Shown in pieces: positions 3,316-43,936 of a stretch of DNA of 64,000 bases. Numbering within the stretch: the stretch's first letter is position 1; each line of letters begins with the position of its first letter. Where the stretch lies: positions 496,001 to 560,000 of the forward strand of contig NZ_CP010907.1 of NCBI RefSeq assembly GCF_000971765.1. Reading direction: 5' to 3'. The notes beneath the pieces were generated by a model. The model saw only the letters and a program-made list of their open reading frames with translations, was not told where the DNA came from and ran no database searches. Both the position numbers and the translations under genes were made by a program. The stretch comes from Candidatus Pantoea carbekii. GTDB lineage: Bacteria > Pseudomonadota > Gammaproteobacteria > Enterobacterales > Enterobacteriaceae.

Positions 3316-3951
3316 TTATTCGCTGAAATGATCAGAATTGTATTCACGTTGATCATCTACAGTTACCCATTTTGGAAATTTAATAATAAATTTATCAGAA
3401 TTAATTTCACCATTATTCTGATTGTCAAATTGGTAGCTATTACACTGTCCATCTTGTTCAATAGTACTAAATTTTCGAATGATTCCTAGAGACGTTACAG
3501 TTATGGTGAATTTCTTCAGATTAGTGTCATTAGCTTTCGGTATTACTTCAAACTGATCGCCTTGTTGTTTTATTGTATAATTTTTCCAATCACTTTTTTT
3601 ATTGCGAGTAAATAATATAAATGGCGTATTATCAATCATGTTTTGTAAAAAATTTACGCTCACCTGAGAAATATAAGGATTATAAAACCAAAGATTTTTA
3701 CCATCAGAGATAATGAAATTTTCGTCAGGTAACTGTATATGCCAATTAAACAAATTTGGATGTTTAACCCATAGTTCGCCTTTTCCATTGTGTATATTCA
3801 CACCATTAGTATCAGTGACTGTTTGGCTAAAAAAAACGTGAAAACTATTCACTTGGTTTAAACGATACTGTAAATTATTTGAAGCATCTGCTAGAGCTAT
3901 TTTGCTACTACATCCGATTAAAAAACTACAAATTATAATAAGTAATTTCAT
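3316..3951 (-). CDS. lolA: periplasmic lipoprotein carrier LolA
   Basis: LolA accepts lipoproteins from LolCDE at the inner membrane and hands them across the periplasm to LolB. The 211-residue frame matches the family throughout, for example ELWVKHPNLFNWH, SDGKNLWFYNPY and GVTVDDQR-like VTVDDQREYN at the end. The N-terminus is a signal peptide, MKLLIIICSFLIGCSSKIAL. The ALA-D site at residues 19-22 fits signal peptidase I, but LIGC at 11-14 also reads as a lipobox, which is unusual for LolA. It follows ftsK on the same strand as in E. coli, after a 277-base gap holding a hairpin. Confidence 0.94.
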   Translation of the reverse strand: MKLLIIICSFLIGCSSKIALADASNNLQYRLNQVNSFHVFFSQTVTDTNGVNIHNGKGELWVKHPNLFNWHIQLPDENFIISDGKNLWFYNPYISQVSVNFLQNMIDNTPFILFTRNKKSDWKNYTIKQQGDQFEVIPKANDTNLKKFTITVTSLGIIRKFSTIEQDGQCNSYQFDNQNNGEINSDKFIIKFPKWVTVDDQREYNSDHFSE

Positions 3952-4038
3952 TGATTAAAATTTTTATTATCTATTAATATAATCACTTCTAACATTATAT
4001 CATAATTGCATTCTCGCTCACAATAAACATTAGCATTA

Positions 4039-4228: not shown

Positions 4229-7033
4229 TTATAACTCTAAATTTAATCTTTTATGATCCTTATTATCATGAATACCATCGATATATTTTAATGAACGACG
4301 CATTTTCCAATCTTGTACTACAGCATGAACTTCTTGATCACAAATAAATGCACCATGTACACGTAATGGAGTTGACGAATTTGGCGGTATATAAAGCATA
4401 TCTCCAATGCCTAACAACGATTCTGCACCTCCTTGATCTAGGATAGTACGTGAGTCGATTTTGCTAGAGACAGTAAATGCTATACGTGTTGGAATGTTTG
4501 CTTTAATGGAACCAGTAATTACATCTACTGACGGACGTTGAGTAGCTAATACTAAATGAATACCTGCAGCCCGTGCTTTCTGTGATAATCGCAGAATAAA
4601 TTTCTCTATTTTTTTTCCTACGACCATCATTAAATCGGCGAATTCATCTATAATAACTACAATGTAGGGTAGCTTCTCATGCATTGGTTGCTGTGTATCC
4701 ATACTAGTAGTAGTAGATGATTTGTTGTAGTATGGATTTGAAATAGAATTAGTTACATTAATTGATTGTTTTATTTTTTCGTTATAATTTAATAAATGCC
4801 GCACTCCAAGAACAGACATTAATTTATATCGACGTTCCATTTCACTAACAATCCAGCATAATACATTAACCGCTTCTGTCATATCAGTTACAACTTCAGT
4901 TAAGAGATGAGGTATACCTTCATAGATTGAAAGTTCCAACATTTTTGGATCTATCATTATAAAACGTACTTCTTCTGGAGTTGATTTATATAACATACTA
5001 ATTATCATGGCATTAATGGCTACAGACTTACCTGAACCTGTAGTACCAGCAACTAACAGATGAGGCATTTTCGCTAAATCTGCTACTACTGGTTGACCAG
5101 CAATATCTTTGCCTAAAACTATAGAAATCGGTGAAGGATTTTTATAAAATGTAGTACTATTTAATATTTCTCGCAAATACACTGTTTGGCGATACTTATT
5201 TGGCAATTCTAAACCTACATATGGTTTTCCAGCAATTACTTCTACTATACGTAAAGAAATTGTCGATAATGATCGTGCTAAATCCCGAGATAAATTTGAG
5301 ATACGTGCAACTTTCACACCAGGTGCTAAATCAAGTTCGAATCTAGTAATTACAGGACCTACCGAAATACTTACAACTTTTGCTTTTATGCGGTAATCAG
5401 CTAATCGGGCCTCAATAAGACGTGCAGTTTTTTTAAGTATAAATCTATCGATAGGTTCTTCTACTGATTTTGGTAGTGTCAACAAATCAAGTGTTGGAAA
5501 AGATTTTGATATAGATGATTTTATTGTATTCATTGATATTTTTTTGTTAAAAATATTATGCGTATTTACTTGTTCAGACGATTGATTTGTTTTATTTAAC
5601 CACAATAAAGTTTGTGATAACTTTTCCCTTGGATTTAATTGATTTATTTCTTCAATAGGAGAAATATTTTTAAATGTTACTAATTTATTGTACGTAAAAA
5701 GTGTTGGATTAGTACTGTGTCGTGCCAAATTATTCATCGGTAAAATTGTGTACGGTAAAACAGTATTAGCAGAAAAAGGTTGTAAATTAATTAAAGACAT
5801 TTGCTTAAAATATGATGGATATCTGGGATAGAACATTTCTTGCGATCGTATACTTTGTTGTAAAACAGTTGATAGCGAGTACAAAATATTTTTTAATTTT
5901 GCTTTTTTTTTAGTATTTTTTTTACTGATATTTTTTGATAATCGTCTAATATAATAAGCAATTAACTGACTACGTATAAGCAATTTTATTTTTTTAATAT
6001 AAAATTTATTAGTAACATATTTAATTAAAATATTTTTTAAAAATCCTTTGAAATTTAAATTAATTAGTATTATATCTTTTATTTTCTTCATCTTGAATAA
6101 AAAATTTGTTTTTATAGTAGATGGTAATATAAAAAATTGATCATCATTGTTATTCAAAGAATGCTTTCTCAAAGCATGATGCTTGTTGCTTTTAAAGCAA
6201 GCTGAAGGCGTAGTTTTGATTGGTACTTTGAAGCAAGATGTTAGTGAGCACGTTCTTTTCGTATGTTTAATCGATTTAAATTTTAAAGAACTACGGTTAG
6301 AAAAAATATTAGTTTTCTTTTTAAGAAAACTAATATTTTGAAATGTATTATTCTTTTTTTGTTTTTTTTGATATTTTTTACTTTTTTGTATATTTTTACC
6401 ATATAATCGATAACTGAAACATACTAACATATTAAGTATTAAACTATAAATTTTATTTGCAATAGCTAACCAAGAATATCCAGAATATAATGTAATACCT
6501 GCTGCCCATAAAAACAAAAGTGCTAATAAACTACCAGTTATGTTCAAGCGTAAAACCATTGCATTACTAATGAAATTACCAATTATCCCCCCAGAAGGAA
6601 AATACAAAATATCATTAAAGATCAATGTAGCTAAACTACAGCTAGTAATAATCAATACAATTATACCAATGCAACGCAACCCAATAGAAAAATAATCAAT
6701 ATAACCTTTTCTATTGCGATTTTTAAAAAGAACCCAGCCTAATTCAATGAGCACCAAAGGGACTACATACGCTATGATGCCAAAAATAATTAATAGCACA
6801 TTAGCTAACCATACACCAAAACTTCCACCTAAGTTACAAATAGATTGACTATTAAAACTTGTTTTATAACAACTAATATTGGAAGGACTAAAACTTATTA
6901 ATGATACTATCATGTAAATAATACATAGTACAAAAATAATGCATAATACTTCCAGTAATCGATTACTGCTGCTTAAAGGTTTCCATGAAAGACTTCTATC
7001 TTTTTTTCTGTATTTTTTATATTCCTGGTTCAA
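4229..7033 (-). CDS. ftsK: DNA translocase FtsK lacking the gamma domain
   Basis: FtsK couples septum assembly to chromosome segregation. The 934-residue frame has the N-terminal membrane domain (several hydrophobic segments within the first about 200 residues), a shortened Lys/Asn-rich linker, and the alpha/beta motor: Walker A GTTGSGKS, Walker [12 protein letters not shown] and the following [20 protein letters not shown]. The frame ends soon after [11 protein letters not shown] with a short unrelated tail. The winged-helix gamma domain (about 60-70 residues after a short linker in E. coli), which reads KOPS and activates XerD, is therefore absent. E. coli FtsK has 1329 residues; most of the difference is linker. 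Between lrp and lolA as in E. coli. Confidence 0.95.
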
Positions 7034-13096: not shown

Positions 13097-14332
13097 ATGA
13101 AATATTTTAATTCAAAGCTCCTTTCTTTTAAAGAAGCACAGCAAAAAATGCAAGAACAGTTAATACCTGTTAGTGATTATCTAGAGCTTTCGCTTTTTCA
13201 AGCTTTAGGACGCATTACTGCCCAACCCATTTTTTCACCATCAAATAAGCCGTCTTTTGATAACTCAGCAATGGACGGTTATGCAGTTCGCATGAATGAT
13301 ATTACCATAAATCGTGTTATGCCTATTGCAGGTACAATTTTTGCTGGTATTCCTTTTACTGGGAAATGGCCAAATGGAAGTGTTCTTCGTATTATGACTG
13401 GTGCAAAAATTCCTACTACATGCAATGTGGTAGTAATGCAAGAACACATAGAACACTGTAATAATGGTATTGTTATTACTCAACCAGTATATGTTGGCCA
13501 AAATATTCGTCGTATGGGTGAAGAAATTAAGATAAATAGTAAAGTATTATCAAGTGGTACACGGCTTGGCATTGCTGAACTATCATTGCTAGCTTCACTG
13601 GGTATTAAAAAAATACATGTATTACGTAAACTTCGTGTAGCTATTCTCTCTATCGGTAATGAACTTCAAACTTTGGGTAAATCACTATTAGAAGGTAAAA
13701 TTTATGATATTAATCGTTTTACATTAATGTTCATGTTGAATCAGCTTGGTTGTGAAGTAATCGATCTTGGAATTGTTGAAGATAATATGCAAGATTTATG
13801 TGAAGCATTTAATACAGGTAATAGCGTAGCAGATGTAGTAATTACGAGCGGTGGTGTATCAGTTGGTGAAATGGATTTTACTAAAAAAATACTGGAAAAT
13901 TTAGGTACCATCATCTTGTGGAAATTAGCGATTAAACCTGGAAAACCATTTTTATTTGGCCAATTAAAAAACAGTTTGTTTTGTGGGCTACCTGGAAATA
14001 CAGTCTCCGCTACGGTAACTTTTTATCATTTAGTACAACCTATGTTACTTAGACTTATGGGTCAAACTGACCGGATTTACCCTCTACGTCAAAAAGCTCG
14101 TGCTATAGATTTTTTGAAAAAATCGCCAGGACGTCTTGAATTTCAGCGTGGTATTCTGAGTTGTGCAAAGGATGGTGTACTAGAAGTGTCTAGTACGGGT
14201 CTGCAAGATTCGCATATTTTTAGCTCATTTGTTATAGGAGATTGTTTTATTGTTTTAGAATGTGAACGTGGCAATGTATATCCCGGTGAATGGGTAGAAA
14301 TTGAATATTTCAATAACTTGTTTAGGAGATAG
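13097..14332 (+). CDS. moeA: molybdopterin molybdenumtransferase MoeA
   Basis: MoeA inserts molybdate into adenylated molybdopterin to form the molybdenum cofactor. The 411-residue frame equals E. coli MoeA in length. It contains the family segments NKPSFDNSAMDGYAVR near residue 55, MTGAKIPTTCN, the ITSGGVSVGEMD loop and KPGKPFLFG. It forms an operon with moeB, whose ATG starts four bases after the moeA stop. The ribosome site before moeA is weak (AAGAAA). Confidence 0.96.
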   Translation: MKYFNSKLLSFKEAQQKMQEQLIPVSDYLELSLFQALGRITAQPIFSPSNKPSFDNSAMDGYAVRMNDITINRVMPIAGTIFAGIPFTGKWPNGSVLRIMTGAKIPTTCNVVVMQEHIEHCNNGIVITQPVYVGQNIRRMGEEIKINSKVLSSGTRLGIAELSLLASLGIKKIHVLRKLRVAILSIGNELQTLGKSLLEGKIYDINRFTLMFMLNQLGCEVIDLGIVEDNMQDLCEAFNTGNSVADVVITSGGVSVGEMDFTKKILENLGTIILWKLAIKPGKPFLFGQLKNSLFCGLPGNTVSATVTFYHLVQPMLLRLMGQTDRIYPLRQKARAIDFLKKSPGRLEFQRGILSCAKDGVLEVSSTGLQDSHIFSSFVIGDCFIVLECERGNVYPGEWVEIEYFNNLFRR

Positions 14333-14336
14333 TGCT

Positions 14337-15083
14337 ATGGAATTAACTGATGAAGAAATATTACGCTATAATAGACAAATTGTAGTACCTGGTTTTAACT
14401 TCAAAGCTCAAGAAAAATTAAAGTTTTCACACGTATTAGTAGTAGGAATTGGTGGACTGGGTTGTGCTGCTTTACCCTATTTAGTTTCATCGGGCATTGG
14501 TCATATTACTTTATTAGATTTTGATACCGTTAGCCTAACTAATTTACATCGTCAAATTTTGCACAGTCAGACAGATATTAGATTACCTAAAATAGTTTCA
14601 GCCGCACAGAAGCTAACATTGATTAATCCTGATTGTAAACTAGAGCTTATTAATGGAAAATTAGATGATAATAAATTTGCAGTATTAATTGCTCGACACC
14701 ATGTAATATTAGATTGTACTGATAACATAATTACACGTGAACAGATTAACAGATTATGTTTTCAGAATAAAATACCATTAGTTTCTGGTGCAGCAATTTG
14801 GATGCAAGGTCAACTAAGCGTATTCACTTGGAAATTAGGTGAGCCATGCTATCATTGTATTAGTCGTCTATTTGGTGAACAGCATTTAAGCTGCACTGAA
14901 ACTGGTGTTATAGCTCCCTTAGTTGGTGTAATAGGTACAATGCAAGCTATGGAAACTATAAAAGTACTCACAGAATTTGGAACACCAGCTAGTTCATGCA
15001 TGTTAATTTACGATGCTATGCATGCTAAATTTCTTACAGTAAAAGTTATGCAAGACAAAAATTGTGAAGTTTGTACTAATTGA
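14337..15083 (+). CDS. moeB: molybdopterin-synthase adenylyltransferase MoeB
   Basis: MoeB adenylates the C-terminal glycine of MoaD so it can be sulfurated and used by molybdopterin synthase. It starts MELTDEEILRYNRQI, has the nucleotide-binding VVGIGGLGCAA and LDFDTVSLTNLHRQ, the catalytic-Cys region LVSGAAIWMQGQ, and zinc-binding pairs CYHC and CEVC. The open frame reaches back to 14301, overlapping moeA, but the ATG at 14337 with an upstream GGAG matches the family. Its partner moaD is intact about 11.5 kb downstream, while moaA-moaC look lost. Confidence 0.95.
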   Translation: MELTDEEILRYNRQIVVPGFNFKAQEKLKFSHVLVVGIGGLGCAALPYLVSSGIGHITLLDFDTVSLTNLHRQILHSQTDIRLPKIVSAAQKLTLINPDCKLELINGKLDDNKFAVLIARHHVILDCTDNIITREQINRLCFQNKIPLVSGAAIWMQGQLSVFTWKLGEPCYHCISRLFGEQHLSCTETGVIAPLVGVIGTMQAMETIKVLTEFGTPASSCMLIYDAMHAKFLTVKVMQDKNCEVCTN

Positions 15084-15781: not shown

Positions 15782-16183
15782 TTATTTAATTAAAAAATCG
15801 TCTAAACTTTTTCCTATTTCCATTGCTTTTTTGATTGCAGCAGGAGTTCGACCTTGACCAGTCCAGGATTTTTTTTCACCATTTTCATCAATATAAAAGT
15901 ATCTTGCAGGACGTGGAGGACGTTTGATTCGTTTTTTGCTAGTTTCTAACATTCCGAGTAATTCATTTGGATCGATGCCATCAGCTAATAGCATTTCGCG
16001 ATATTTAGAAAGTTTTTCTTCTTTTTCACGATTTTGAGCTTCTTCTGCTTCTACTTCTTCGCGACGTTCTTTCACTACTATAGTTAATTTTTCCAAGATT
16101 TCTTCTAAATCGGCTAAAGTTAGTTCACGTGCATGTGCACGCAATGTACGAATATTATTTAAAATCTTAAATGCATCACTCAT
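15782..16183 (-). CDS. hns: nucleoid protein H-NS
   Basis: H-NS binds and silences A+T-rich DNA. The frame starts [20 protein letters not shown], has a central acidic coiled coil for oligomerisation, and ends with the DNA-binding domain [16 protein letters not shown] and SLDDFLIK. Two ATGs are adjacent (16186 and 16183); the second has the better spacing to AAGGA and matches the family start. In E. coli hns is not near moeB or mntR, so its place here is a rearrangement or an insertion. It could also be a paralogue (StpA type), but the length and sequence favour H-NS. Confidence 0.94.
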
Positions 16184-16281
16184 CATAATGTCCTTTTTTA
16201 AAATTTTTTTTAAAATAGTAATCAGATTACCTAATTAATATAAAAAAATAAATTAATTTAAAAAACTTAATTGTTATTAAT

Positions 16282-16333
16282 AATATAAAATATTTTATTG
16301 CATTTTTAAAAATGCAATAAAATATTTTATATT
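16282..16333. repeat. 52-bp perfect palindrome upstream of hns
   Basis: Two 26-base arms with no loop at all; the left arm ends ATTGCATTTTT and the right begins AAAAATGCAAT. It lies about 100 bases upstream of the hns start. It could form a cruciform or a very long RNA hairpin. No base pair is broken over 26 positions, which stands out among decayed DNA. Confidence 0.85.
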
Positions 16334-16580
16334 TAAAAGAAAATAAATATTGATAAATTTTAGCACTTATACAAAGTGAAATTAATTTTTATTTAACATA
16401 AAAATGATGAATATTTATTTCAAATGAAATTTGAAGTATGAATCAAAATCAAAAATTAAAATTATTTAATAATAAGATATTCATCTTATAAATATTTTAT
16501 ATCATATAAATACGGTTAAAATTTTTTAAAACATGAAAATCAATAAAAAAGCTAGCTTGAATGCTAGCCTATAAGTAACT
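16334..16580. other. gap beyond the palindrome
   Basis: Featureless A+T-rich DNA between the 52-bp palindrome and the terminator that closes the decayed transporter gene. The hns promoter may start in this stretch. Confidence 0.35.
16545..16570 (-). terminator. orphan terminator of the decayed transporter gene
   Basis: On the minus strand AGGCTAGC, a 6-base loop and GCTAGCTT are followed by a run of T, a textbook intrinsic terminator. No intact gene feeds into it; it lies just past the C-terminal end expected for the transporter remnant upstream. Confidence 0.75.
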
Positions 16581-17745
16581 TAACAACTAAATATTACAAA
16601 TTTTCTACTTTTGACTTTTAAAGTATGTTAGTATATTTTATCAGATAACCAATATGTAAATAATGCTCAATTCATTCTAACGAATAATTGTAATTTCTTG
16701 CACATATTGAATAACAAAACATGCTCTTCTAAGCCCAATAATTGAAAAAATTACTTAATAATTCGCCAAAGAATGAAATTAAAATTGAAAATATGAAAGA
16801 GATAAAAAAGTTAGCAATCTATATAGAAAATATTGTTGCTTGGATAAATAATCCACTAAGACGTCTAAGAACATTTCTATAATACTCAGTAAGTAACTAG
16901 TGATGCTCCTTACTGAAAACTTCTATACATTAATATACCTAATAAAAACAATTACCCAATATATATTCATTTGAGCGTCAATACCTTCTGGCCTTACATA
17001 ATTGAATGTACAACTAGCAACTAAACGTCTAGTACAAGAAAATCAACATCATTATCATGCTGCGCCGTCTAATACAACTGATTAATTAATTTCTAAAAAA
17101 GTCATTAATAATTAATATTAAAATAATGGTTTTAAAAGTAGTAAAAAATAAAGCAACGTTATCATTCACATTTACTTTTCTTAACCTAGTTGGCGTAAAC
17201 TACATAATATTATTGACAACAGTTAAGTTTTGAATGAACATACATATATGGTTGTACCAATGAAAAAGTTTCAATAAAAAATAGTCTGCACAACTAACAA
17301 AAACGTGGGTAACATTTGTGTATATAAGATAATTAGTCTTTGTGTAGTTACAAGTGAACTTAGTTTTTTAGTTGTTAACATTGCAATAATAAATGCTTTT
17401 TCTGTTATTGAACGGCACGCGAGATTTTTCTTAATATTCAATAATATAAAATCATCTATTCAATATTGGGCAAAATTGCTGTTACAAATAGTACCATTGA
17501 AAAATTAATACTGTTAAAAGGATTTTGCTACTCGCTACCCTATGCTATGCTATCAAGATATGTAAAAATTAAAACCGAAAATGTAGCACTAGATAATTAC
17601 ACTAATTATTGATTAAATCTATGGTAAATGGTGTTAATAATGAGTATTCATACATAAATTAAGAATACTCTTTAAAATGGCGCCTGTATCATAACCCAAA
17701 ATTAGGAAACTACTAAAGATAACGATCACTTTTGCGTCACTTTAA
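16580..17745 (-). pseudogene. decayed sugar-porter (MFS) transporter
   Basis: Three stretches on the minus strand match the sugar-porter family (GalP/XylE/IolT type) in the right order and spacing. At 17637-17741 the frame reads FLILGYDTGAI (family LLFGYDTGVI, helix 1). At 17459-17527 it reads FSMVLFVTAILPNIE (family ILFVAGSLFSAAAPNVE). At 17274-17426 it contains LVTTQRLIILYTQML (family LVTQNELMIVSGQLL in inositol carriers). Stops and frameshifts lie between them and the C-terminal half is not resolved. Substrate cannot be told. Not expected here from E. coli gene order. Confidence 0.6.
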
Positions 17746-18284: not shown

Positions 18285-18318
18285 CCAGAATATTTATTTT
18301 GCAAAATAAATATTCTGG
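18285..18318 (+). terminator. 34-bp perfect palindrome with downstream T-run
   Basis: Arms of 17 bases with no loop (CCAGAATATTTATTTTG and its complement), followed on the plus strand after a few bases by a run of seven T. Terminator-like on the plus strand, though no plus-strand gene precedes it now. Confidence 0.55.
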
Positions 18319-24786: not shown

Positions 24787-25150
24787 ATAATTCGTTATGT
24801 GTTTCAGCACATTATTTATTATGATGCTTACTTTTTTAACAGCTAATTTAAATAAATTTAAAATTTAATATATTTAGATAGTTATATATAATTACTATTA
24901 TTATATATAACTATCTTTCCTAAAAAGCAGTTGTTCATATAGAAAGGTAATAAATTATTTAAAATAAATAATATTTATGATGTGTGTTATATAAATGTAA
25001 TAGCAATAAAAGCAAATCAAATTTTAAACTATTATTTAAATTTCTCATTTACAATTACTGAAATTAAAAAAGAAACTTCCATAAATTGATCTAGAATAAA
25101 CCGTTAAACTAATTTTCGGTATATTCTTACAAGAATTTTTATTCTCTTTT
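24787..25150. other. gap between yohD and ybhQ
   Basis: Contains only the yohD hairpin; the ybhR-ybhF transporter genes found here in E. coli are absent without visible trace. Confidence 0.45.
24876..24916 (+). terminator. yohD: yohD terminator-like hairpin
   Basis: Perfect 17-base stem (24876-24892 with 24900-24916) with a 7-base loop, 90 bases past the yohD stop and followed by TTTCC. Very A+T-rich but unbroken. Confidence 0.6.
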
Positions 25151-27250: not shown

Positions 27251-28309
27251 ACAACTTTGAAAATTGTTTATTTTAATAATAATTAATTAGATAACATTAT
27301 TTAATTAGCCAAATAGCCTTAGATGATTTTCATTTAAAGTGATAGATCTTATCCATAACCTGTTGAAAATTATAATTCACTACCGACTATATTAGTAGAA
27401 TAAATTAATTAGCTAGTACAAATGAATATAATATTATTTGTATTATATAAATTGTAAATCGATAAAATAATAATATTATAGTAAAAATTAGTATTATATC
27501 TCAATGTATAACTTCAATGTACAGCATGAAATACAACAGAGCATTAGAATCTAATTTTTAGGAAAATAAAATTTTTACATTTTTTCTGAATTATGTATGT
27601 TATTTCACGAAAATAAATACATATATAACGTATATGCTGTAGTTAATCAATTTTAGTAAAAATATTTTTTGTAACGTTTATAAACGAAATTATTAAAATC
27701 AGGGCCGTTTTTTTTAAATTTTAAGAAATAAATCGTATGTATAATATATCCATCATAAAGATACATTTCATATATGATAAAATTACAATATGTATGCTAA
27801 AGAGAAATGATGATTGAAAGCTTAAAGTATAGGAAACATGCGTTCTGTAGTACTGAGTAGTCACAATTTACTCGAATACATTATGTCTGCAATAGTATGA
27901 TTATAATGACATCTAATTAGGTAGGCAACTATCACTTATAATTGAAGTTATACTGGCATAATTAGACGTTCAGAAAAAAATATTAACTAAAATGATTTGT
28001 AAACTTCATTAACTTTTTAATTATTTAATTAAATATTGATTATATTATTTGAAAATTTTTTTTGATAGAGCTAGTTTATTATAATTTAGATAACTTAATT
28101 TTGAAAAATTGAATTATCTTAGTAAGAATCTACTCAAATCAATCAATGTCATAAATAATTTAATAAGAGTAAATACATCATTAATTCTAATATCAGAATA
28201 TCTTTCAATTAAAGAGTACCAAACGATAAATTCAAATTCAAATTATCAATGTAATTTGAATTTGAATTTATCGGAAAAAATTTTTACTACTGCTATAGTT
28301 ATAAAATTT
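27251..28309. other. moaA: decayed region at the moaA/moaB position
   Basis: Over 1 kb with no open frame. Around 27920-27950 the minus strand reads ITSIISDSC, loosely matching the MoaA radical-SAM start LRLSITDVC at the place its N-terminus should be; V-T and R matches follow downstream. The cysteine cluster CxxxCxxC is not preserved. Plausible but not proven moaA fossil. The uvrB hairpin lies at the right end. Confidence 0.35.
28224..28273 (-). terminator. uvrB: uvrB 3' hairpin with direct repeats in its arms
   Basis: Perfect 22-base arms (28224-28245 and 28252-28273) with a 6-base loop, 36 bases past the uvrB stop. Each arm contains TTCAAA-type units in tandem (AATTCAAATTCAAATTA). The T-run on the minus side is short, so termination strength is uncertain. 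Confidence 0.6.
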
Positions 28310-37108: not shown

Positions 37109-37804
37109 GAGACAGCTCTCGTTGTATTATTGCAAATATTATTCAATTAAAAAATAAAGTAGTACAAAAACAATCATATTACCTTAAAGCTAAAATAAAA
37201 TATCTAAATCATCTAAACATATTTTTTTATTTTAAACATTATATTCAATGTTTCGTCAAACCTTATTGATTTTTAATTTAATTATTAAAACTATTCTGGT
37301 AAATTGTATACATTAACATTAATTAAATTTAAAAATTAAAGTTAAATCATTACACTAAAATTCTTTAAAGAATAAATAATGATATTTTTATCAGAAAGAT
37401 AAATTCTATTATGCAAAGCATAATAGAATTTGTTAACATTTTAAATATTAGTAATTAATACATTAAATGAAATTAATTTTACCAATTCTTATCTGAATAA
37501 TATTTCAAATTTTTTCTAAAAAAATAAAAAAATTTTTTTAATATAAACAGTAATATTTTTTTTGTTAGTAAAAAGAGCTGTAAGTAAAATTTACGCAAAT
37601 TTCTTTTTAAAGAGAGAACTCAACTAGATTGCTGTTTATTTACAATAAATAATAAAGTAAATTTATAAACTCACTGAATGTTATTCAGAAACTTAGGTTA
37701 AATAAAGGGAAGGATTACAAGTTAGATAATAATAATTAGTAATACTATTTATATACAATAGTAACGTTTCTATAACTACCTATACATTTTTAATAATGCA
37801 ATAG
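37109..37804. other. gap between nadA and tRNA-Lys
   Basis: About 700 bases. E. coli has a run of lysine and valine tRNA genes before nadA; only one remains at the far end. A 14-bp hairpin (37401-37431) is the only clear structure. Confidence 0.45.
37401..37431. terminator. 14-bp perfect hairpin upstream of nadA
   Basis: AAATTCTATTATGC, a 3-base loop and GCATAATAGAATTT. It may terminate the tRNA transcript or be a leftover of the lost tRNA cluster. On the minus strand a T-rich ATCTTTCT follows. Confidence 0.5.
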
Positions 37805-37877
37805 TGGGTCGTGCAGGATTCGAACCTGCGACCAATTGATTAAAAGTCAACTGCTCTACCAACTGAGCTAACGACCC
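37805..37877 (-). tRNA. tRNA-Lys (anticodon UUU)
   Basis: The minus strand gives a complete cloverleaf: acceptor GGGTCGT / ACGACCC, D-arm AGCTCAGTTGGTAGAGC, anticodon loop CTTTTAA and T-arm with GGTTCGAATCC. It is nearly identical to E. coli tRNA-Lys. The three bases after the discriminator A are CTA rather than CCA, so the tail is not encoded correctly and must be added by tRNA nucleotidyltransferase. In E. coli it belongs to a seven-gene Lys/Val cluster between nadA and cpoB; only this one remains. Confidence 0.97.
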
Positions 37878-41289: not shown

Positions 41290-42930
41290 ACTACATATAA
41301 GTAATTTTTTGTTGAAAATTTTTAAAAATTAATTTTTAAAAATTGTGATTTTTTTATGTTTTCTGTTTTTTTCTTTTAATTACATAATACTTAATATTAT
41401 CTTACAATGAAACTTTCAATAGTTACCTTTTTAATGACCTACTACTCTATCAAAAATTATGATTACCCATTATTGTTTTAACTTATTAATTTTTATATTG
41501 AATTTATCATGATTTTTCTCAGAAATATGCATTCAGAAAACGATTAAAATAATATCAGTTTTTGAATTTTTTATAAGTTAGCTCCGTTATTAATCGATAG
41601 TTAATTACATGAATTTTATATAGTATATGAACTACTAGAATCATTTCATCGATCATATGGCATGATTTTTGTAACGGCAATCCAGCAGATAGGCATTTTA
41701 AATTATATCGCTAGTGTTTTATACGATATCTATTAATGACCAACCTCTACCATTCTATAGATATTATTTTAATAATTATAGCTAGATGACGATTTTTAAA
41801 ATCGGTATTTGATTTATGAGATTTTGGTAAATTCACTTTATACTGTGTGTAATATTTAGAATAATAGTTATAAATATCAATACAAGTATGCACAACTGCA
41901 TCGAGTAATAGCATTATATTAATTTTTCATGCAATATAATGATGCTACGTCTAAATATTCTCACTATTTTAAACCATCTTAATTTACTGCCATGTGATCT
42001 GCTTAATTTATAAGATTTAATGATAATATGAAAACAATTATACATTCTTCTACAAAATTGTAATAGCTTTATTGTGAGTTATCCACACGTTGTCTTAGAA
42101 AAGGATAACAGCTATAATGTCAACAATAACTTTGAATAAATTAATAGCAATAAAAATGTTTGTCGTCGAAATTAGGAACTGTTATTGACACTATAATATG
42201 TTTTACATCTAGCATAGAAAAAACTATGTGCAATAAATACGACACATCCTATGTTTTGCTAACAAACTAATATACCTTCTAATTTAAATAATGGCACTAA
42301 GAAAAGAAATGTAGTTTTCTAAAAATTTTAGTTGACAATTAACAATTATACGTATAACTCATCTCGTTAATTTTAGTTTTACTGACCTATTTCGATTAAC
42401 ATATTTAAGATGAATAAATTCTATAAAAACTAAGTATAATATTTTTTAGCACCACTGAGTTTATTTTAGCACTTGGCCTTTTTAATATGATGTAGATAAA
42501 TTAATTAGAGTAAATTTTACTTTTTTTCTAATTTTATTAATAGGTCAATGTGCATAAAACTAAAAATATTGACATAAGTAACTATTGAAACTTTATCACA
42601 AAATCAACTGACAATAATAAAATCAAAAGTCAAAATTGAGTTGTAGATGTATTATTCATGCTAACAATTACAATTTTTATTTCACTATCTGAAAGATTAA
42701 AAATTACTTTTGTTAATTATATTTCATCGAACAATGTTATCAACATCAGATGATAGATAAACTGGCTTTTGTCAGACTAGATATCCAAAATAGTCTATTC
42801 TCGTTAAGTTGATCTAAATAAATCAAAATATTAGATCATATTCAAAAAAAGATTTTCATTCAAGGTTTATCATTTCTGATGTTAGTACTTGGCAAAAGTA
42901 GTAATCATGCAAATCAAAAAATATAGGTAT
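41290..42930 (-). pseudogene. cydA: decayed cydA (cytochrome bd oxidase subunit I)
   Basis: Minus-strand segments align in order and spacing with CydA. LVC*QNIGCV then VFI near 42235-42300 follows FVHTVASGYV...MFI. RQTFLLLLIY near 42160 follows KRSFAIAASF. AVILF*D near 42095-42115 follows SVIVLGDE. RYRIKH*RY near 41725-41750 follows RNRIGEKKW, and MPICWIAV (WIAV at 41673-41684) follows IPLPWIAV, then PYDR follows EYGR. The heme ligands cannot all be checked. The gene lies downstream of sucD on the same strand, as cydAB does in E. coli. Ends are approximate. Confidence 0.72.
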
Positions 42931-43045: not shown

Positions 43046-43936
43046 TTAAAATTTAGATGATTCATGGAATAACATTATTTCTTTGACTGCTGTTCCAATA
43101 TCACATAAATTATGAACAGTTTTTACACCAGCTTCTTCAAGAGCAGAAAATTTTTCCTCGGCAGTGCCTTGTATCCCTGAAATAATAGCACCTGCATGAC
43201 CCATACGTTTTCCTTTCGGTGCAGTTACACCAGCAATATAGCTAACAACAGGTTTAGTGATGTGTTTTTTGATAAATTCAGCTGCTTCCTGTTCTGAACT
43301 ACCACCAATTTCACCAATCATTACAATTACTTTAGTTTGTGTGTCATTTTGAAACATCTTTAAAATATCAATAAAATTAGAACCTAAAATTGGGTCACCT
43401 CCAATACCTACACATGTTGACTGACCATAACCCATATCTGTGATTTGTTTAACTGCTTCATAGGTTAAAGTACCTGAACGCGATACAATACCAATACTAC
43501 CAACTTGATGAATATGGCCTGGCATAATACCAATTTTACATTGTCCTGGTGTTATTACACCAGGACAATTTGGACCAATCATTCTTACACCTGTTTCATC
43601 TAATTTTATCTTCGTAATTAGCATATCAAGTATTGGTATACCTTCTGTAATAGTAATAATTAACTTCATTCTTGCATCAATTGCTTCTAGAATGCTATCT
43701 TTGCAGAAGGGTGCAGGAACATATATCACTGTAGCGGTTGCGCCAGTCACTTCTATAGCTTCGCGAACAGTATTAAATATAGGTAGACCTAGGTGACTAG
43801 TACCACCTTTACCAGGCGTTACACCACCAACTAACTTTGTACCGTAAGCTAACGCTTGTTTAGAATGAAAAGTGCCTTGGTTACCACTAAAACCTTGGCA
43901 AATTACTTTGGTATTTTTATCAATTAAAATAGACAT
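43046..43936 (-). CDS. sucD: succinyl-CoA synthetase alpha subunit
   Basis: Converts succinyl-CoA to succinate with phosphorylation of ADP or GDP, in the TCA cycle. The 296-residue frame starts [20 protein letters not shown], carries the CoA-binding [11 protein letters not shown] and the phosphorylated histidine in GHAGAI. It is slightly longer than the E. coli protein at the C-terminus. Its ATG overlaps the sucC stop by one base (TAATG), indicating coupled translation. Last gene of the suc operon. Confidence 0.97.

Follow-up and report, generated by a model that had tools for sequence, protein, structure and literature searches.

A long perfect palindrome upstream of hns in Candidatus Pantoea carbekii: one of a genome-wide class of exact hairpins, probably formed by template switching

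The 52-bp perfect palindrome that is found upstream of hns in Candidatus Pantoea carbekii is one member of a class of hairpins, unrelated in sequence and mostly exact, that occur genome-wide, and it is probably the mutational product of a template switch (quasipalindrome correction), which is a known process. Any effect of the palindrome on hns is probably incidental. The organism is the symbiont of Halyomorpha halys, with a reported size of 1.151 Mb and a GC content of 30.4% (PMC8032781). The window, by which the whole stretch of 64,000 nucleotides that was analysed is meant, covers positions 496001–560000 of a contig of 1,150,626 bp, in an assembly of 1,196,948 bp and 5 contigs.

A preliminary description of this DNA had reported a loop-free perfect palindrome of 52 bp upstream of hns, and this was confirmed exactly: window positions 16282–16333 are their own reverse complement, with 26 of 26 pairs, arms of 26 bp and a loop of 0, ending 96 bp upstream of the hns ATG. 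Exactly complementary arms with a short spacer or none are what a template switch is expected to leave. The first three positions outward of the arms are all mismatched, so that complementarity breaks off abruptly where the arms end. At the local base composition, a loop-free 26-pair palindrome is expected by chance about 2e-7 times per 64 kb. Folded with its flanks as DNA, the sequence reaches −21.5 kcal/mol against a shuffle mean of −8 (z −6.7), and as RNA −23.5 kcal/mol against −7.35 (z −6.0). It is present in a single copy, since a genome search with a 30-base half, allowing at most 3 mismatches, returned one plus-strand and one minus-strand match, which are its own two halves. An Rfam scan of the window gave one match only, a tRNA at 37805–37877, and none at the palindrome. 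The features that matter for the discussion are the following.

16282–16333, no strand: palindrome with 26-bp arms and no loop (self-complementarity, DNA and RNA folds)
15782–16186, minus strand: hns, H-NS family, 134 aa, the moeB-linked copy (ORF; PF22470 and PF00816 over cut-off)
16224–16259, minus strand: nearly invariant block, putative hns core promoter, with TAATCT at 16229–16224 as candidate −10 (alignment of carbekii and 12 relatives)
16376–16389, minus strand: possible degenerate counterpart of an inverted repeat conserved in relatives, about TGAAATCGATTTCA (spacing; weak match in carbekii)
16541–16570, minus strand: intrinsic terminator of a lost upstream gene, stem 16549–16570 plus T-run (terminator scan; counterpart in several Pantoea)
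16654–17235, minus strand: remnant of an MFS sugar-transporter gene (tblastn with a Pantoea septica ORF)

The palindrome does not stand alone. A sample consisting of the window and 15 further stretches of the carbekii genome (364 kb) contains 34 perfect stems of at least 13 bp with loops of 0–12, of which that at 16282–16333 is the longest, whereas shuffles gave 0, 1 and 0 for the sample, 0, 0 and 0 for the window, and averages of 2.0 and 0.4 in other sets. Stems of at least 16 bp number 19, against 0 in shuffles. By eye the hairpin sequences differ from one another; an excess of unrelated repeats of this kind over chance (34 in 364 kb against averages of 0–2) is what template switching is expected to produce. 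Although ORFs cover about 60% of the DNA, 31 of the 34 hairpins lie outside called ORFs (at least 90 aa), a count that includes 5 hairpins at stretch edges, where cut ORFs went uncalled. Of the 34, only 4 are non-ORF hairpins that lie no more than 60 bp from the 3′ end of a gene. Seven further perfect hairpins occur in the window itself (6303–6339, 18285–18318, 24876–24916, 28224–28273, 37401–37431, 41317–41344 and 43540–43569), with stems of 13–22 and loops of 0–7; those at 6303 and 43540 are inside ORFs, and that at 18285 is located downstream of an mntR-like gene.

Imperfect stems (1–4 mismatches) are comparatively few in carbekii, with 7 against the 34 perfect ones, and with 0.6–0.8 in shuffles. 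If long stems only are considered, 19 perfect ones (at least 16 bp) stand against the same 7, all of which have arms of at least 17 bp; these counts come from a scoring that favours perfect stems. With stricter scoring the 19 carbekii stems are all perfect, which says little by itself, because the same holds for every sampled genome, G015 included, and because of the bias of the scoring. Decaying DNA abounds in this genome, yet half-decayed hairpins are outnumbered by exact ones, which suggests that the hairpins are young or are kept corrected. The preliminary description had proposed recent origin or selection for the palindrome. The best fit is a recent origin, or else continuing self-correction, given that hairpins of the same kind, unrelated in sequence and for the most part exact, occur throughout the genome; selection for control of hns found no support.

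Among the genomes sampled, exactness is marked in carbekii only. Two relatives with large genomes (G020 and G009) have one perfect stem of at least 16 bp in 200 kb each. In the reduced relative G013 (1.1 Mb) there are 8–9 in 200 kb, depending on the scoring, and a laxer setting gives 22 perfect and 12 imperfect stems. In G015 (1.0 Mb, 20% GC) 4 perfect stems of at least 16 bp were found, and the laxer setting gives 20 perfect and 33 imperfect ones, many of the latter being expected by chance, with 14–18 imperfect stems in shuffles. G007 and G008 have 4 and 2 perfect stems of at least 16 bp, respectively, in 100 kb each. Close direct repeats, counted without a shuffle comparison, number 3 in carbekii, 21 in G013 and 40 in G015.

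Perfect inverted repeats are reportedly generated in bacteria by quasipalindrome correction or template switching, as van Noort in 2003 and Ladoukakis and Eyre-Walker in 2008 are said to have described. During replication, a short, imperfect inverted repeat would let the nascent strand fold back and serve as its own template, so that approximately the length of one arm would be replaced by the reverse complement of its partner and the repeat would become exact. Such hairpins would arise throughout the non-coding DNA of a reduced, AT-rich symbiont, and their persistence may be due to the apparent absence of enzymes that attack hairpins or suppress switching; their exactness would then reflect youth or repeated re-correction. 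The conversion of quasipalindromes to perfect ones by template switching is described in PMC7202029, and PMC8794818 proposes that perfect stems can also be created and maintained in this way.

The enzymes that are relevant here were searched for by protein family. SbcD, ExoI and the large subunit of ExoVII gave no match in the carbekii genome, and for SbcC the ATPase domain family PF13476 gave one sub-threshold match, which we guess to be RecF; the E. coli control was positive every time. In E. coli, ExoI and ExoVII restrain template-switch mutations. In four genomes without SbcD (G000, G013, G007 and G008) there are 33 perfect stems of at least 16 bp in 764 kb, against 1 in 300 kb for two genomes with SbcD (G009 and G027) and 0 in 100 kb for G030, which has a sub-threshold SbcD match only. 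This comparison leaves out G015 and G020, and a link between loss of SbcCD and abundance of perfect stems is suggestive only, because GC content and descent are confounded with it. With more doubt than confidence, it may be proposed that loss of SbcCD and of single-strand exonucleases allows reduced symbionts to accumulate long inverted repeats and to re-perfect them continuously, the arms evolving in concert as in Nematomorpha mitochondria, and that this process put one such repeat next to the promoter of the sole H-NS gene.

The surroundings of hns agree with the earlier description of the palindrome as lying in decaying DNA. Between hns and the mntR-like gene (18626) only one ORF of at least 60 aa lies wholly inside, of 67 aa, and at 16654–17235 there is a transporter remnant with 30% identity over 205 aa (E 3e-13, tblastn) to a P. 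septica ORF (L054) that is a PF00083 Sugar_tr protein. A galU remnant, the first guess for the upstream gene, was ruled out by this tblastn match and the PF00083 assignment, which identify an MFS sugar transporter. On the other side, a moeB-like (ThiF-family) gene at 14301–15083 adjoins hns, and relatives have the same neighbour. In P. septica and in a Nezara symbiont (L068) the same H-NS gene is situated between the moeB-like gene and another ORF, which is a sugar transporter in the former and has a similar start, by eye, in the latter. As in carbekii, the hns of edessiphila SoEO (L076), of 77% identity, is found downstream of ORFs that by eye resemble ompX and mntR. The sole H-NS match in the carbekii genome is the moeB-linked copy at 15782–16186, and the H-NS copy that P. 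eucrina (L090) has adjacent to thymidine kinase shows only 65% identity to it; for these reasons a tdk-linked hns seems to have been lost in carbekii.

In an alignment of the hns upstream region of carbekii and 12 relatives, the block 16259–16224 is nearly invariant and is the most conserved stretch upstream of hns, from which we infer that it is the core promoter. The palindrome begins about 22 bp beyond this block, away from hns, in a region where the relatives are variable. The preliminary description had called for a comparison with relatives, and the palindrome is shared by none of those examined: no counterpart exists in the 12 aligned relatives, and by eye it is absent from four edessiphila-group strains and from Brub. 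A conserved regulatory site would be found at the same place in relatives, which the palindrome is not. Neither of its arms resembles the relatives beyond chance (permutation p at least 0.08 for every arm and relative), a comparison that has no power to pick the ancestral arm. Among the matches to plasmid records listed (best 20 of 122), only the hns part of the query was covered. Promoter-like hexamers in 16100–16700 number 10, against 6.7 ± 2.8 in shuffles, and those inside the palindrome are therefore no evidence.

What is conserved in the relatives is another element. An inverted repeat (about TGAAATCGATTTCA) was located by pattern in 10 of 11 relatives (L054, L053, L052, L056, L074, L058, L033, L059, L055 and L062; about 390–397 bases into stretch 3401–4003), each time 132–133 bp away from one reference position inside the block, and a degenerate, weakly matching carbekii counterpart lies 134 bp from the block. 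Since its spacing to the promoter block is nearly fixed, this repeat suggests a regulator site that would be lost or decayed in carbekii. The old terminator and the block are separated by 289 bp in carbekii and by 287–304 bp in eight relatives, L055 also allowing a second reading of 273 bp. A net insertion of about 52 bp was first suspected, and the spacings in relatives gave no support for it. Because both the terminator and the operator-like site keep the spacing of the relatives, the palindrome seems to have replaced sequence rather than to have added any, an argument that leans on the weak operator match and on a variable region.

Other explanations of the palindrome have to be weighed against template switching. 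The preliminary description had suggested a protein site or a cruciform affecting hns, and a selected control element of this type, for instance a site for H-NS itself, would profit from the location some 22 bp upstream of the putative promoter block and from being the longest such stem in 364 kb. Furthermore, edessiphila SoET (L084) carries a 34-bp perfect palindrome with 17-bp arms (about 3845–3878) in an overlapping stretch upstream of hns. The SoET palindrome is unrelated in sequence, however, and hairpins of this sort abound in reduced genomes; moreover, the carbekii sequence is common to no relative examined, with a counterpart in 0 of the 12 aligned, and the upstream inverted repeat that Pantoea does conserve is a different one. 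Control of hns is thus unlikely to be the reason for its presence. The same description had offered a strong RNA hairpin in a leader, which could act on mRNA stability or translation and for which the RNA fold (−23.5 kcal/mol, z −6.0) speaks. Because the putative core promoter lies between the palindrome and hns, the palindrome is probably outside the leader RNA: transcripts starting in the block would have a leader of about 30 nt that does not include it, and read-through from the lost upstream gene would meet the terminator at 16541–16570. A role in the leader is therefore very unlikely.

That the palindrome is an intrinsic, possibly two-way, terminator that insulates hns would agree with its long stem and intergenic position, and is scarcely credible for a structure with very few G-C pairs and a T-run on neither side, where a G+C-rich stem followed by a T-run would be expected; a scan of 16100–16700 found 16549–16570 only, and the hairpin class is not clustered at gene ends (4 of 34). 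Misassembly does occur at inverted repeats, but an assembly artefact is extremely improbable here because an ordinary read would presumably be longer than 52 bp, and the palindrome has sharp junctions with flanks that differ. Its shape might also point to a small mobile element or to membership of a dispersed repeat family, readings to which we give just as little credence: the other hairpins look unrelated and no net insertion is seen relative to the relatives, and the several copies expected of a dispersed family are not there, the palindrome being single-copy.

Template switching, which we prefer, connects the carbekii hairpins to systems that have been described before. They share with the bacterial quasipalindrome-correction repeats (PMC7202029) that exact, closely spaced and unrelated inverted repeats exceed chance, and differ from them in that stems reach 21–26 bp, in a decaying symbiont genome, and that the ancestral imperfect repeat was not recovered. 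Nematomorpha mitochondria (PMC6649704) likewise have exact long repeats in an AT-rich genome, with few imperfect or decaying intermediates, and template switching is one possible mechanism that is named for them; those repeats have longer arms, of up to 142 bp, and are located inside coding genes, whereas the carbekii hairpins mostly avoid ORFs. AT-rich endosymbionts such as Buchnera (PMC10434271) are similar in being small symbiont genomes rich in inverted repeats, but that survey counts predicted repeats generally, whereas exact long stems are set against shuffles here. In the open literature on palindromes, inverted-repeat excess and endosymbionts, nothing on the carbekii palindrome was found among the titles and abstract openings of the matches listed, and neither of the terms 'palindrome' and 'inverted repeat' occurs in the main text of PMC8032781.

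As a single feature the palindrome is ordinary. Exact palindromes in decaying genomes should, with due caution, not be read as control elements. The hairpin class as a whole offers a natural test of whether the loss of hairpin-cleaving and single-strand nucleases alters the origin and persistence of inverted repeats.
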